Shown here piece after piece: positions 34,801 through 40,800 of a DNA stretch of 64,000 nucleotides (its first letter is position 1; each line of letters starts with the position of its first letter). The DNA is from Chamaelirium japonicum (lineage: Eukaryota; Streptophyta; Magnoliopsida; Liliales; Melanthiaceae): the NCBI GenBank assembly GCA_947650365.1, contig OX393549.1:20574572-20638571 (forward strand). Reading direction: 5' to 3'. A program made the translations under genes and the position numbers. The notes below the pieces were generated by a model. That model was not told the origin of the DNA. It ran no database searches and saw only the letters and a list, made by a program, of their open reading frames with translations.

Positions 34801-37800
34801 TCCTTCATTCCCACATGAGGTGAACCTCCATACTAGCTCGATTTGCAAGATTTGAAGCCAAAAACTCGGATTTGTAAGATCAAAACCACATTTGAAGGTA
34901 TGTTTTCATAATTTTTTTCATTTTTCTTTTGTTTTGTTGCATTTTTTTTGAAAAAAAATCAAATTATTGTGGTGAAAATGTTGAAATGGGCTAAATCTAT
35001 GCCATCAATGCTTAGATCTATAGATCTATAAGTATCAACTCCAAATTTGCATGATCGGTTCATGCAAATTTGAGGGTTTTTCAATTTTCTTTTCTTTTTT
35101 TGCATTTTTTAAAAAATTAAACCAAATAATTATGATGAAAATGGTGATATGGGTTAGATCTATACCGTCAAAGCTTAGATCTATAGATCTATAAGCATAA
35201 TATCCAAATTTGCATGATCGGTTCATGCAAATTTGGGTTTTTTTTTCAATTTTTATTTATTTTTTTGCATTTTTTAAAAAAACAAACCAAATAATTGTGG
35301 TAAAAATGTTGATATGGGTTAAATCTATGCATTCAATGCTTAGATCTATAGATCTATAAGCATCATCTCCAAATTTGCCTGATCGGTTCATGCAAATTTG
35401 GGGGTTTTTCAATTTTCTTTTCTTTTTTTGCATTTTTTTTTTTAAATAAACCAAATAATTATGGTGAAAATATTGATATGGGTTAGATCTATGCCATCAA
35501 AGCTTAGATCTAAAGATCTATAAGCATAATCTCCAAATTTGCATGATCGGTTCTGTTAGGAGATGAAGACTAGGGTTTGGAGAGAATGGAATGATCTCTA
35601 TTGAGGGACTCAAGCCCAATATATATGTACATGTATGACCATACAACCCGACCCGACTGTACAAGTAACCCGACCCATCTATATACATTAACACTCCCCC
35701 TCAAACTCACGGTGGATCATGAACCGAGAGTTTGCCGATAAAGTGTCGGAAGCGAGCAATCGTAAGGGCCTTCGTCAGAAAATCAGCAGTCTGCTCCGAT
35801 GACGAAATGAATGGCAAGGAGATGGTGTGGTCGAGAAACGCCTGGCGAACATAATGACAATCAACCTCGATATGTTTTGTTCGCTCGTGGAAGACCGGGT
35901 TGCTAGCAATCTGAATAGCACTCCGGTTGTCACAGAAGAGAGGCGTGGGCCCGGATATCACAACTCCCAAGTCAAGCAGAAGGCGGCGAAGCCAGACAAT
36001 CTCTGCGGTGGTGGAAGCCATAGCCCTGTATTCGGCTTCGGTGCTGGAGCGAGCAACAGACTCCTGTTTCTTGCTGCGCCACGAAATGAGCGAATCACCC
36101 AGAAACACACAGTATCCTGTAGTAGAGCGACGAGTGACTACATCTCCTGCCCAATCTGCATCAGAGTAGGCACGCAGCACCAACGGAGATGTGGAGGGAA
36201 ACAGGAGTGAACGGGTGATAGTGCCTCGGAGGTAGCGGAGAATCCGAAGGACAGCTGCATAGTGAACTGAGCGTGGAGCCTGAACAAACTGACTGACAAT
36301 GCCAACAGCATGAGCAATGTCTGGCCGGGTCATAGTGAGGTAGACGAGCATCCCAACCAGCCTCTGGTAGCGGGAGACATCCTGGAGCGGTTCACCGTCT
36401 GTAGCGAGAAGCTTCAAATTGAGCTCCATGGGTGTATCAGCAGTGCGTGTGTCAGTAAGAGCAGCATCAGCAAGGATGTCGGAGATGTACTTCTGCTGGG
36501 AGACCAACAGACCACGGGCTGACCGGGCAATCTCAAGGCCCAAAAAGTAGCGAAGAGATCCCAGATCCTTCATCTCAAACTGACTCTGGAGGTGCCGCTG
36601 GAGAGAGGCGATGGTGGCACTGTCATCCCCAGTGATGATCATATCATCCACATAGAGGAGAAGAACTGCAATGCCCTGACTGGAGGAGCGAGTGAACAAG
36701 GCATAATCGGAGTGACGCTCAACAAAACCGGCGGCCAGAACTGCACTGCGAAATCGCTCAAACCAGGCACGAGGGGCCTGCTTGAGCCCATAGATGGCTC
36801 GGCGCAACCGACACACGTGCCCTGGAGGAACTGGAGTGCCCGGAGGAGGAGCCATGTAGACTTCCTCGGAGAGATCACCGTGGAGAAACGCATTGGTGAC
36901 ATCCATCTGATGGAGAGGCCACCCTCGAGCAGCTGCCACAGCTAAGAGGGTGCGCACAGTAGTCATCCGAGCAACAGGAGCAAACGTCTCCTCGTAGTCA
37001 ATCCCATACTCCTGGGAGAAGCCACGAGCAACGAGGCGAGCCTTGTGCCGCTCAATGGATCCGTCAGGTCGAGTCTTGACCTTGAATATCCACTTGCAGC
37101 TAACAGGCACCACACCTGAGGGACAAGGCACCAAATCCCATGTCTGGGTCCGCTGAAAAGCCTCAAGCTCAACTGACATGGCCTGCCGCCACTCTGGATG
37201 TAACACTGCCTCACGGTACGATTGGGGCTCCCGATGGGTGTGTATAGCAGTAAGGAAGGCCTGAAAAGAAGGTGAATAGGAGGCACTGGCAGAGTAGCCA
37301 GAGGAGTCAGGAGAGTCAGAGGGAAAGGCAGAGTAGCCAAACCTGTCAGGAGAGTAGTCATATCTGTCAGGAGGGTGATGTTCGCGCGCCGGGTAGCGCC
37401 GAACAGGAGCAGGATCCACGACCGGGGAGGAGGGGGCAACAGCATCAGGCGAGGGAGTACCAGTGGGAATCGACTCTGGAGGAGGAGCTGCAGACCGACG
37501 AACATAGACACGAGTAACGGGTGGTGGTGGAGGTGGCGAGGGAGACTGAGGAGGTGGTGGTGGTGGTGGTAGTGGTGGTGGAGGTGGCGGGGAAGATGGA
37601 GGTGGAGTAGGCGTGGGTGGAGCAACAGAAAACGGGGGTAGAACGGGAATGTGGAGATGTGATGAAGGTGAGGAGGGTGACACAGGAGAGAAGGGTAACG
37701 ACGTAGAAGAGGACGTAAGTGGTGAGGGAAGATCCCGGGACTCAGTGGAAAAGTACGGGACATCCTCTACAAAGGAGACGTGGCGAGAGATACGGATCCG

Positions 37801-40800
37801 ACGAGCTAAGGGATCGTAGCACCGATAGCCCTTGTGCTCCCGACTGAGTCCTAAGTGAACACACCTAACAGACCTAGCAGAGAGTTTGGTGCGCTCATGG
37901 GGAGGGAGGAGGACGAAACACGTGCACCCAAAGGTACGAAGAAGAGAGTAGTCAGGAGATGTGGAGTAAAGCCGCTCGTACGGGGAAACACCCGAGAGGG
38001 ATGAGGACGGAGTGATATTGATGAGGTGAACAGCGGTCAGGACAGCTTCAGCCCAGTAGGAATGTGGAACAGAAGCAGACAGAAGTAGAGCTCGTGCTGT
38101 CTCGAGGACATGGCGATGTTTGCGCTCGGCGACTCCGTTTTGTTCATGGGTATGGGGACACGACTGTTGGTGAAGAGTGCCGTGAGTCTGAAGGATCTCA
38201 CGCATCTCAGAGGAGAGATACTCCTGGGCACAATCAGACCGAAAAGTCTTAATGCGCCGACCAAACTGGGTGTGAAGCATAGTAGTGAAGGTCCTGTAAA
38301 TATGAGGAATCTCGGAGCGGCGACGCATGAGATAGACCCAGGTGCAGCGGGAGTAATCATCTATGAAGCTCACATAATACAAAAAACCAGTAAAAGAGGC
38401 AACTGGAGCAGGACCCCACACGTCAGAGTGCACGAGATCAAAAGGGGCGCTGGAACGGGAAACACTAGTAGAAAAAGGAAGAGCAAGGTGTTTGGCTAAT
38501 CGACACCCAGTGCAGACAGAGAGAGGGGAGAAGGACACCCGACCCAAAGCGCCAGAGCGAAAAACGCTTTGGAGTCGATCACTGGATATGTGACCTAACC
38601 TTCTGTGCCACAAATCGGCATCAGAGGTAACAGACAGAGCCGACGGAGTGGAAGTGGGAACCTGAAGGTGATCCAACTGATAGAGTCCCCCTGCTCGACG
38701 ACCCAGCCCAACTCTCTGACCCGTCCGCGGATCCTGCACAGAACAAGAAGAAGAAGTAAATGTAACGATCAGGCCCGAGTCACAAAGAGAACTAACAGAT
38801 ATTAAGTTAATGTTTAAGCGGGGAGCAAGGTGAACACGAGGTAAGGTTAGGCGACCAGTGGGATCCGAGGCAGGGGTGATGGATCCACACTGCGAAATGG
38901 GTAGACGAGTCCCATCAGCAGTGTGAATCCCCATGTGGGTAGGAGCAGGGCTACAGTCCGTGAGGACAGAAGGATCGGAGGTAAGGTGGCAGGAGGCACC
39001 CGAGTCGAAGATCCATGGAGCAGTAGTACCCGGAGTGGCAGAAAGACTGTGAGCTGGCGGAGAGCTGGTAGAGGCGAGGTATCGCAACAGTAACTCCTCA
39101 AAGCGCTGGAGGCGGTCGGAGTAAGACCGAGACTGAGCAGAAGTATCCGGAGTGGCAGAAAGACTGTGAGCTGACGGAGAGCTGGTAGAAGCGAGGTATC
39201 GCAACAGTAACTCCTCAAAGTGCTGGAGGCGGTCGGAGTAAGACCGAGACGGAGCAGGAGTGGTGGCAGGTGGTGCTGGAGTAGGGAGATCAGCAGCAGC
39301 AGCAGTCTCGCCATCATGGCGGAGGGGACCCTGACGACGTCCACAATCGACGGACGTGGTGGAGGGACGTGGCTCGAGAATACCATCAAAACGAGGAGAC
39401 TGAGGGACTCGACGATCAGCGACTGTGTGCAGGCAGTATGGGAGCCGAGAGATGCTGTAGGAAGCCATACCCCTGAAGTACGGGGGCGAGCCGGCACAAG
39501 GGAGGTCTAAGGCAGTCCGTACAGAGGAGAAAGGGGGGCGGTGGGGCTTCAGGGGGGGCGCAGGAGGGGGCGGTGGGGCTTCAGGGGGGTGCAGGAGGGG
39601 GCGGGGGTGCAGGGGAGGGCGGAGGGGGGCCTGCCGGGTGGAGGGAGGCGGAGGGGGGGGGGGGGCCTGCGGGGTGCAGATGGGGCCGGAGGGGGGGCTG
39701 CCGGGTGGAGGGAGGCGGAGGGGGGGCCTGCGGGGTGCAGATAGGGCTGGAGGGGGGGGCTGCCTGGTGGAGGAAGGCGGATGGGGGGCCGGCGGGGTGC
39801 AGGTGGGGCCGGAAGGGGGGGCTGCCGGGTGGAGGAAGGCGGAGGGGGGGGCCTGCGGGGTGCAGATGAGGTCGGAGGGGGGGGCTGCCAGGTGGAGGGA
39901 GGCGGAGGGGGGGCCTGCGGAGTGCAGATGGGGCGGAGGGGGGCCTGCCGGGTGGAGGGAGGCGGAGGGGGGGGGGCCTGCGGGGTGCAGATGGGGCCGG
40001 AGGGGGGGCTGCCGGGTGGAGGGAGGCGGAGGGGGGGCCTGCGGAGTGCAGATGGGGCCGGAGGGGGGGCTGCCGGGTGGAGGGAGGCGGAGGGGGGGCC
40101 TGCGGGGTGTAGATGGGGCCGGAGGGGGGGCTGTCGGATGAAGGAGTGGCCGGAGGTGACTGCCGGGTGAAGGGGAGGGGCTGCCGGGCGGAGGAAAAGC
40201 CGGAGGGGAGGGCTGCCGGGTGGAGGGAGGCCGGAGGAGGGGCTGCCGTCGTCGCCGTCGTCGCACGAGAGAACCCTAGAGCTCTGATACCATGTTAGGA
40301 GATGAAGACTAGGGTTTGGAGAGAATGGAATGATCTCTATTGAGGGACTCAAGCCCAATATATATGTACATGTATGACCATACAACCCGACCCGACTGTA
40401 CAAGTAACCCGACCCATCTATATACATTAACAGGTTCATGCAAATTTGGGTTTTTTTTATTTTTATTTTCTTTTGTTGCTTTTTTTTGAAAAAAACCAAA
40501 TAATTGTGATGATATGGGTCAGATCTATGCCATCAATGGTTAGATCTATAAGATTTGAAGTATCATCTCCAAATTTGCATGATCGGTTCATGCAAATTTG
40601 GATGTTTTTTCATTTTTCTTTTGTTTTTGTAACATTTTTTTTGAAAAAAAACTAAATAATTATGGTGAAATATATGTACATTGTAAAATGACTTGATTCT
40701 TGAATGTTTGAATGTTTTTCAGGAAAATGGTGCGAGAGTATGATCATGCGTGGTCCCATGGGGAGGCAGTTGCGGGTTTGAGGCACAAGATTAAGTGCAA

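Follow-up and report, generated by a model that had tools for sequence, protein, structure and literature searches.

Dependence of a Ty1/copia retrotransposon on the Gag of another element has been described in barley, where an 8-bp deletion removed the gag start codon of BARE2 while pol was kept, and where BARE2 RNA is packaged by BARE1 (PMC3735527, PMC9744471, in the parts of these sources that were available). Here we analyzed a 64,000-nucleotide (nt) stretch of Chamaelirium japonicum DNA (contig OX393549.1 of assembly GCA_947650365.1, positions 20,574,572 to 20,638,571 of the forward strand; hereafter the window), which carries at 35554-40432, on the minus strand, a Ty1/copia element bounded by long terminal repeats (LTRs) and a target-site duplication (TSD). 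We consider it probable (about 0.82) that this element is a young copy of a BARE2-like, Gag-dependent Ty1/copia family that has no gag. A preliminary description of this DNA had presented such a lineage as the reverse of most known parasites, which overstated its novelty, because BARE2 had already lost Gag synthesis, kept pol and been packaged by BARE1, and this way of life is therefore already known. As far as the published description of BARE2 allows them to be likened, both are Ty1/copia families without Gag synthesis that keep pol and share their genome with a close relative that bears gag. However, BARE2 bears an 8-bp deletion of the gag start, whereas in the window family ~266 gag codons are gone, the AUG after the leader is kept and the gag tail is repeated, and RNA packaging was demonstrated for BARE2, whereas for the window family it is deduced from sequence.

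Other plant systems resemble the window family in part, again as described in the portions of the sources available. In wheat, RLG_Quinta and RLG_Cereba share their primer binding site (PBS) and LTR ends (PMC9744471, PMC11302176), and both this pair and RLG_Sabrina/WHAM/Wilma combine, as in the genome of the window element, non-autonomous and autonomous families in one genome, but in these wheat systems the non-autonomous side has kept Gag and is devoid of reverse transcriptase (RT) and integrase (IN), which is the opposite loss, and the elements are gypsy rather than copia. Retand and other plant elements carry, as the window element does, arrays of tandem repeats within a non-coding internal region (PMC11963269), although Retand has its arrays downstream of pol, before the 3′ LTR, and the window array forms the 5′ leader of a copia element. 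In the survey of Neumann, GAG was not reliably identified in 442 of 5410 Ty1/copia elements, with divergence and mutations given as the likely cause (PMC6317226). These 442 elements and the tomato TARE1 copies (PMC3701649) are, like the window element, copia copies without a recognizable gag, but, unlike the window family, they are not described in the available text as a uniform multiplied gag-less family. No description of the window family was found in the portion of the open-licence literature covered. It differs from the known systems in the physical loss of the capsid part, the AUG opening a Pol-only frame, the repeated tail, the measured constraint on Pol and the probable helper family alongside.

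The features of the element and of its insertion site, ordered from its 5′ to its 3′ end, are the following.

40433-40437, no strand: right copy of the TSD, GGTTC
40293-40432, minus strand: 5′ LTR (element sense), 140 bp, identical to the 3′ LTR
40281-40292, minus strand: PBS, TGGTATCAGAGC, the same in the gag-bearing sisters L075 and L076
39534-40250, minus strand: 5′ leader minisatellite, C-rich in the sense strand, unit ~61 bp, no coding periodicity
39466-39468, minus strand: pol-frame ATG, the first downstream of the PBS, context AGGGGTATGGCT (G at -3 and +4)
39340-39465, minus strand: stretch following the ATG, its source not traced by sister comparison
39018-39251, minus strand: residual gag C-terminal tail, two 117-bp (39-codon) units identical at 111/117 positions
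35707-39468, minus strand: Pol-only frame from ATG to stop, 1,253 codons plus stop
38773-39015, minus strand: protease (PR)/Pol_BBD region, DSGA at 39006 (Pfam and motif)
38149-38688, minus strand: GAG-pre-integrase and IN core, gag_pre-integrs and rve (Pfam)
37753-37965, minus strand: SH3-like retroviral domain (Pfam)
36424-37146, minus strand: RT, RVT_2, YVDD at 36654 (Pfam and motif)
35917-36165, minus strand: RNase H (RH)-type motifs SDADWA, STEAEY and CDNRSA (motif)
35694-35702, minus strand: polypurine tract (PPT), GAGGGGGAG
35554-35693, minus strand: 3′ LTR (element sense), 140 bp, identical to the 5′ LTR
35549-35553, no strand: left copy of the TSD, GGTTC
34914-35553, resuming to the right of 40433, no strand: AT-rich tandem array of ~164-bp units, the insertion target of the element

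In agreement with the preliminary description, the LTRs show no difference (140/140), both GGTTC copies were located at the element edges, and the PBS and PPT stand next to the LTRs. The empty site is visible, the 40-mer obtained by joining the two flanks being identical (40/40) to another array unit at 35205. The absence of differences in 140 LTR positions sets a 95% upper bound of 2.1% on divergence, which a rate of 1.3e-8 per site per year converts to ~0.8 million years; since it only bounds the divergence at that value, this LTR pair alone provides a loose date.

The minus-strand frame 40275-35707 runs without a stop across 1,522 codons and contains Pfam domains from Pol_BBD to RVT_2, which bears out the uninterrupted pol noted before. 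PR, IN, RT and RH all show catalytic-type motifs in the pol frame, under the motif names that we take to apply to them. The element has the LTRs, TSD, PBS, PPT and PR-IN-RT-RH order of a Ty1/copia element, but it lacks the gag with a capsid-type domain that its sisters possess, and it is therefore regarded as a non-autonomous derivative rather than a complete Ty1/copia member.

The absence of gag was supported by several searches. The nearest database proteins are two from the orchid Platanthera zijinensis, one of which, P0002, is a gene model to which an unrelated N-terminus has been fused; its gag domain spans 376-563 and is preceded by a Pro-rich stretch. An integrase tree of 41 rows placed the window element with P0001 and P0002 (97/94) and then with P0003 (100/97). 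P0003 retains a partial gag with a CCHC motif, read from its sequence, which makes a gag-bearing ancestral state probable. No relative was confirmed by a scan of viral contigs. By Pfam, no gag family was detected in the pol frame, nor across most of the two remaining minus frames in the 5′ part, and translated gag-query searches in all six frames revealed no gag in the element beyond the tail. When 69 N-terminal parts of relatives were used as gag queries, the element matched only in Pro-rich stretches or in the tail among the 60 best of 887 rows. The gag core of the sister L075 (344 amino acids (aa), CCHC included) had no match in the window, in 30 loci carrying the gag-less junction or in 16 leader loci, although the same query matched L076 over 294 aa at 95%; likewise, in the 16 leader loci the P0002 gag matched nothing but the tail and, once the tail was removed, it found nothing in the 30 junction loci. 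A gag in another frame, a possibility that had been raised as a refutation, was thus rejected by the Pfam and six-frame searches, and the earlier observation that gag domain and zinc knuckle are absent holds.

As read from these searches, the capsid domain and zinc-knuckle part of gag is missing downstream of the leader, and the tail is kept and duplicated. The distance from the ATG to the DRLQ motif of the tail is 344 codons in the sister and 78 in the window (39468 to 39234), a net loss of ~266 codons that we infer to be an internal deletion. The ATG at 39468 would be the old gag ATG, judging from where it lies and from the first residues, MAS, which the window and sister frames have in common. 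The tail repeat consists of two or three 39-codon units, in frame before the protease, and varies among copies (including junction loci L043-L072).

According to the preliminary description, ~0.8 kb of repeat fills the position of gag. The repeat is instead the 5′ leader, since a C-rich leader also precedes the gag ATG in both sisters examined and hence accompanies gag without replacing it; the minisatellite was rejected as a gag replacement on these grounds. Tandem Repeats Finder delimited a ~61-bp unit with 8.7 copies at 39604-40144. One frame runs open across the repeat and on into pol, and this could be taken to support a new Pro-rich structural protein that replaces Gag, the second of the two outcomes foreseen earlier besides a gag supplied by another element. 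This explanation is very improbable. The repeat is open in all three minus frames, and at least one frame is open in 93.75% of 2000 dinucleotide shuffles, so that openness is what the composition predicts and provides no evidence of coding; in the Neumann survey, extra frames in tandem repeats were likewise excluded as likely reflecting few stops, according to the part of that paper available (PMC6317226). The spacings between register copies are 67, 62, 61, 64, 63, 61, 61 and 61, and as 7 of the 8 are not multiples of three, the reading frame shifts from unit to unit. The repeat also lacks codon periodicity, with no frame preference under pol-trained codon-position frequencies (800/2000 shuffles as good), its length in the family is not constant, as detailed below, and both examined gag-bearing sisters have a C-rich leader besides gag. 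A Pro-rich structural product was therefore discarded on the lack of an ATG, the lack of periodicity and the frame-shifting units.

The piece 39271-39468, in contrast to the repeat, has pol-like codon periodicity (13/5000 shuffles as good), and in sliding windows the pol-like frame preference is clear only below ~39430; because the preference is absent from the repeat and present in this piece, coding appears to begin downstream of the repeat. The earlier statement that the open frame has no ATG is correct within the repeat but not beyond it, as the pol-frame ATG at 39468 follows, the first after the PBS. Since 13% of shuffles of leader composition contain no ATG, the missing ATG in the leader is by itself weak evidence. 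The origin of 39340-39534 was not found by comparison with two sisters, to which its similarity is near or within that of shuffles (12/200 and 117/200 reach it). On this evidence the minisatellite is best read as a variable 5′ leader of the family with no coding role.

The family itself was searched for in the genome (1.52 Gb, 3253 contigs). The LTR gave 41 places, the best 40 of 2709 candidates being scored, and 30 LTR loci were cut out, 16 on the PBS side and 14 on the PPT side. Among these, 13 LTR pairs could be assembled, all with matching 5-bp TSDs (13/13) and with 0 LTR differences in 11 pairs and 1 in the remaining 2; the pairs amount to 12 distinct insertion sites by their flanks, as L015/L016 and L017/L018 share flanks, and the best LTR matches are close copies by choice. 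The gag-less junction was present in 15 of the 16 PBS-side loci, in 14 across all 503 nt and in L029 up to the end of the locus. As a query, the junction (39018-39520) was matched over 502-503 of 503 nt at 96-100% in 40 of 40 scored places from 1181 first-look candidates; junction and LTR loci overlap in part. From PBS to ATG, 27 of 30 junction loci were readable, and in all 27 a C-rich leader of 632 to 881 nt was found, followed by an ATG that is the first after the PBS in 25 and stands in the same context in 26; the frame from this ATG continues without a stop through the whole piece (650 codons) in 16. The three other junction loci lack the 5′ LTR of the gag-less family, two being cut at or inside the PBS and one having a foreign LTR.

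Some of these loci deserve separate mention. L045 and L055 are gag-less copies that lack a 5′ LTR and break off at the PBS or within it. L019 (C2) follows the family from the LTR through the leader past the ATG and leaves it 57 nt into the junction for unrelated sequence, with an 85% LTR match close by in the opposite orientation. Identical flanks occur at two places for L015-L018 (C3) and L010/L021 (C142/C1), as in a segmental duplication or a duplicate assembly.

These results indicate that the gag-less form has, by its sequence signature, multiplied recently, as anticipated for a recently active lineage with pol and without gag. Single deletions are common in LTR elements, and gag might have been lost in the very reverse transcription event that gave the window copy, which would then have founded nothing; tomato TARE1 copies without gag offer a partial precedent (PMC3701649, as described there). 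Nevertheless, such a dead-on-arrival copy is hardly credible, since the same junction is present at full length in 40/40 scored places, the copies have independent TSDs and Pol is constrained among them; a unique or dead copy was ruled out by the junction shared at many independent sites. An assembly error of the repeat is also unlikely in the assembled copies, given the 40/40 junctions and the C-rich leader in 27/27.

Constraint on Pol was estimated from 13 copies of an RT-RH piece and 12 of an IN-RT piece, one duplicate insertion having been removed from each, and compared with a null in which the same base changes were placed at random (3000 replicates). Two-state variants present in at least two copies comprised 14 synonymous and 8 nonsynonymous changes, against 14.5 of 22 nonsynonymous under the null (9/3000 as low), and singletons comprised 48 and 81, against 90.4 of 129 nonsynonymous (127/3000 as low); an earlier count with the duplicate kept had given ratios of 0.20 and 0.59. 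Because the copies used carry the same gag-less junction, the shared pol variants most likely arose after the loss of gag, and their shortage of amino-acid changes indicates that Pol has been useful in the gag-less state. This constraint would also suit a mutual partner rather than a parasite, that is, a gag-less family giving Pol to a shared particle pool from which both families use it, and a division of labour in which Quinta and Sabrina supply Gag has been proposed in wheat (PMC11302176, PMC9744471, in the text available). However, a Pol that serves its own RNA alone should be constrained just as much, and we regard the partnership as possible but doubtful.

Gag-bearing sisters, the search for which had been proposed earlier, are abundant in the same genome. 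The P0002 gag query gave 147 scored places of 6305 candidates at 66-70% identity, i.e. at least 147 gag-bearing places, and 85 of the 147 list open frames of at least 1400 aa, of which 82 are left after removing 3 with a stop in the match. L075 has a C-rich 569-nt leader without ATG, a gag starting at MAS with CCHC at residue 261, the tail and the protease; its 129-bp LTR is related to the window LTR at 114/142 aligned positions, and its PBS is identical. L076 has a 492-nt C-rich leader without ATG followed by gag, and a different LTR. L075 and L077 delimit a young gag-bearing element with identical 129-bp LTRs and TSD GGTCC; L077 and the window element are identical over the 37 nt that precede the 3′ LTR. 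The PBS, PPT region, LTR ends and leader type are thus common to both families.

Both families were also found joined to a tiny LTR element resembling a terminal-repeat retrotransposon in miniature (TRIM), with a 111-bp LTR starting TGTTAACGGATAGTCCC and the same PBS, in two gag-less cases and one gag-bearing case. In L053 (with L073), the order is tiny LTR, gag-less internal part, window-type LTR, tiny internal part and tiny LTR, with TSD CTTCT; in L076 (with L078), tiny LTRs lie outside and a gag-bearing internal part plus a sister-type LTR end inside, with TSD GTTTA; and in L029 the nesting is reversed, window-type LTRs lying outside and the tiny element inside the gag-less one, with TSD AGGTA. 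Judged from this structure, each composite is a single-unit insertion. The presence of the same tiny element in composites with both families suggests that gag-less and gag-bearing elements share particles, template switching in such particles being the simplest source of the composites.

Taken together, these data point to a family in which gag was lost and the pol frame kept in many young copies, in which pol has been constrained since, and which has a gag-bearing relative with the same PBS and LTR ends in the same genome. The C-rich leader, the AUG, a short stretch and the gag tail precede an intact pol, and the capsid/zinc-knuckle part of gag is absent. We propose that this part was deleted; that the gag-less RNA and its own Pol would be packaged in particles made from the Gag of the gag-bearing sister family, which would act in trans; and that the gag-less family would be a Gag-dependent parasite (or partner) of this sister, as BARE2 is of BARE1.

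Several points weigh against this proposal. It was drawn from genome sequence. Leader-to-protease pieces were read for 2 of the 147 gag places (L075 and L076), one of them a composite, and since the genome searches score the best candidates only, the copy numbers are minimum values that favour close copies. Damaged copies exist: the frame from the ATG is interrupted by a stop in 11 of 27 leader-side pieces, and stops also occur in 3 of 14 3′-end pieces and in 1 of 13 middle pieces. The signal of selection in shared variants is based on 22 sites, and the composites could derive from recombination of complementary DNA instead of co-packaging. Finally, the protease-proximal DNA of L075 differs by ~23% from that of the window element, and therefore neither the exact helper nor the immediate gag-bearing ancestor is pinned to L075. 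This last figure (only ~77% identity) would also fit a helper Gag from another copia lineage, or particles without capsid Gag, the copia survey of the genome having covered the gag-less family and the sisters matching the P0002 gag. We consider this quite unlikely, as the L075-type sister has the same PBS and PPT region, LTRs alike at 114/142 aligned positions and, like the gag-less family, recombined with the same tiny element.

Within the Gag-dependent reading, a further and unlikely idea is that the repeated capsid-free gag tail serves as a docking module that would bring into sister particles a Gag-free Pol whose translation starts at the old gag AUG, the gag-less family then being a stable Pol donor and the sister a Gag donor. 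If so, the Gag:Pol ratio problem of single-frame copia elements would be eased.

Elsewhere in the window, two Rfam 5S rRNA-like matches (50612-50730 and 51027-51145, 415 bp apart) lie outside the element and presumably resemble the LTRs of Cassandra, a TRIM. Broken minus-strand frames at 55469-60056 resemble, by eye, gypsy-type pol and gag, a weak match to copia gag is found on the minus strand at the left edge (11-301), and a 60-bp minisatellite of ~5 copies occupies 45826-46145.

The window element shows that an expanded leader can take the form of a minisatellite at an unexpected position, and that frames left open across C-rich repeats should not be taken for genes. The gag-less family adds to BARE2 a further copia element that would live without gag, with pol apparently under selection and a probable helper in the genome, and it raises two testable questions: what makes a Gag parasite retain a Pol of its own, and by what route a Gag-free Pol reaches particles.

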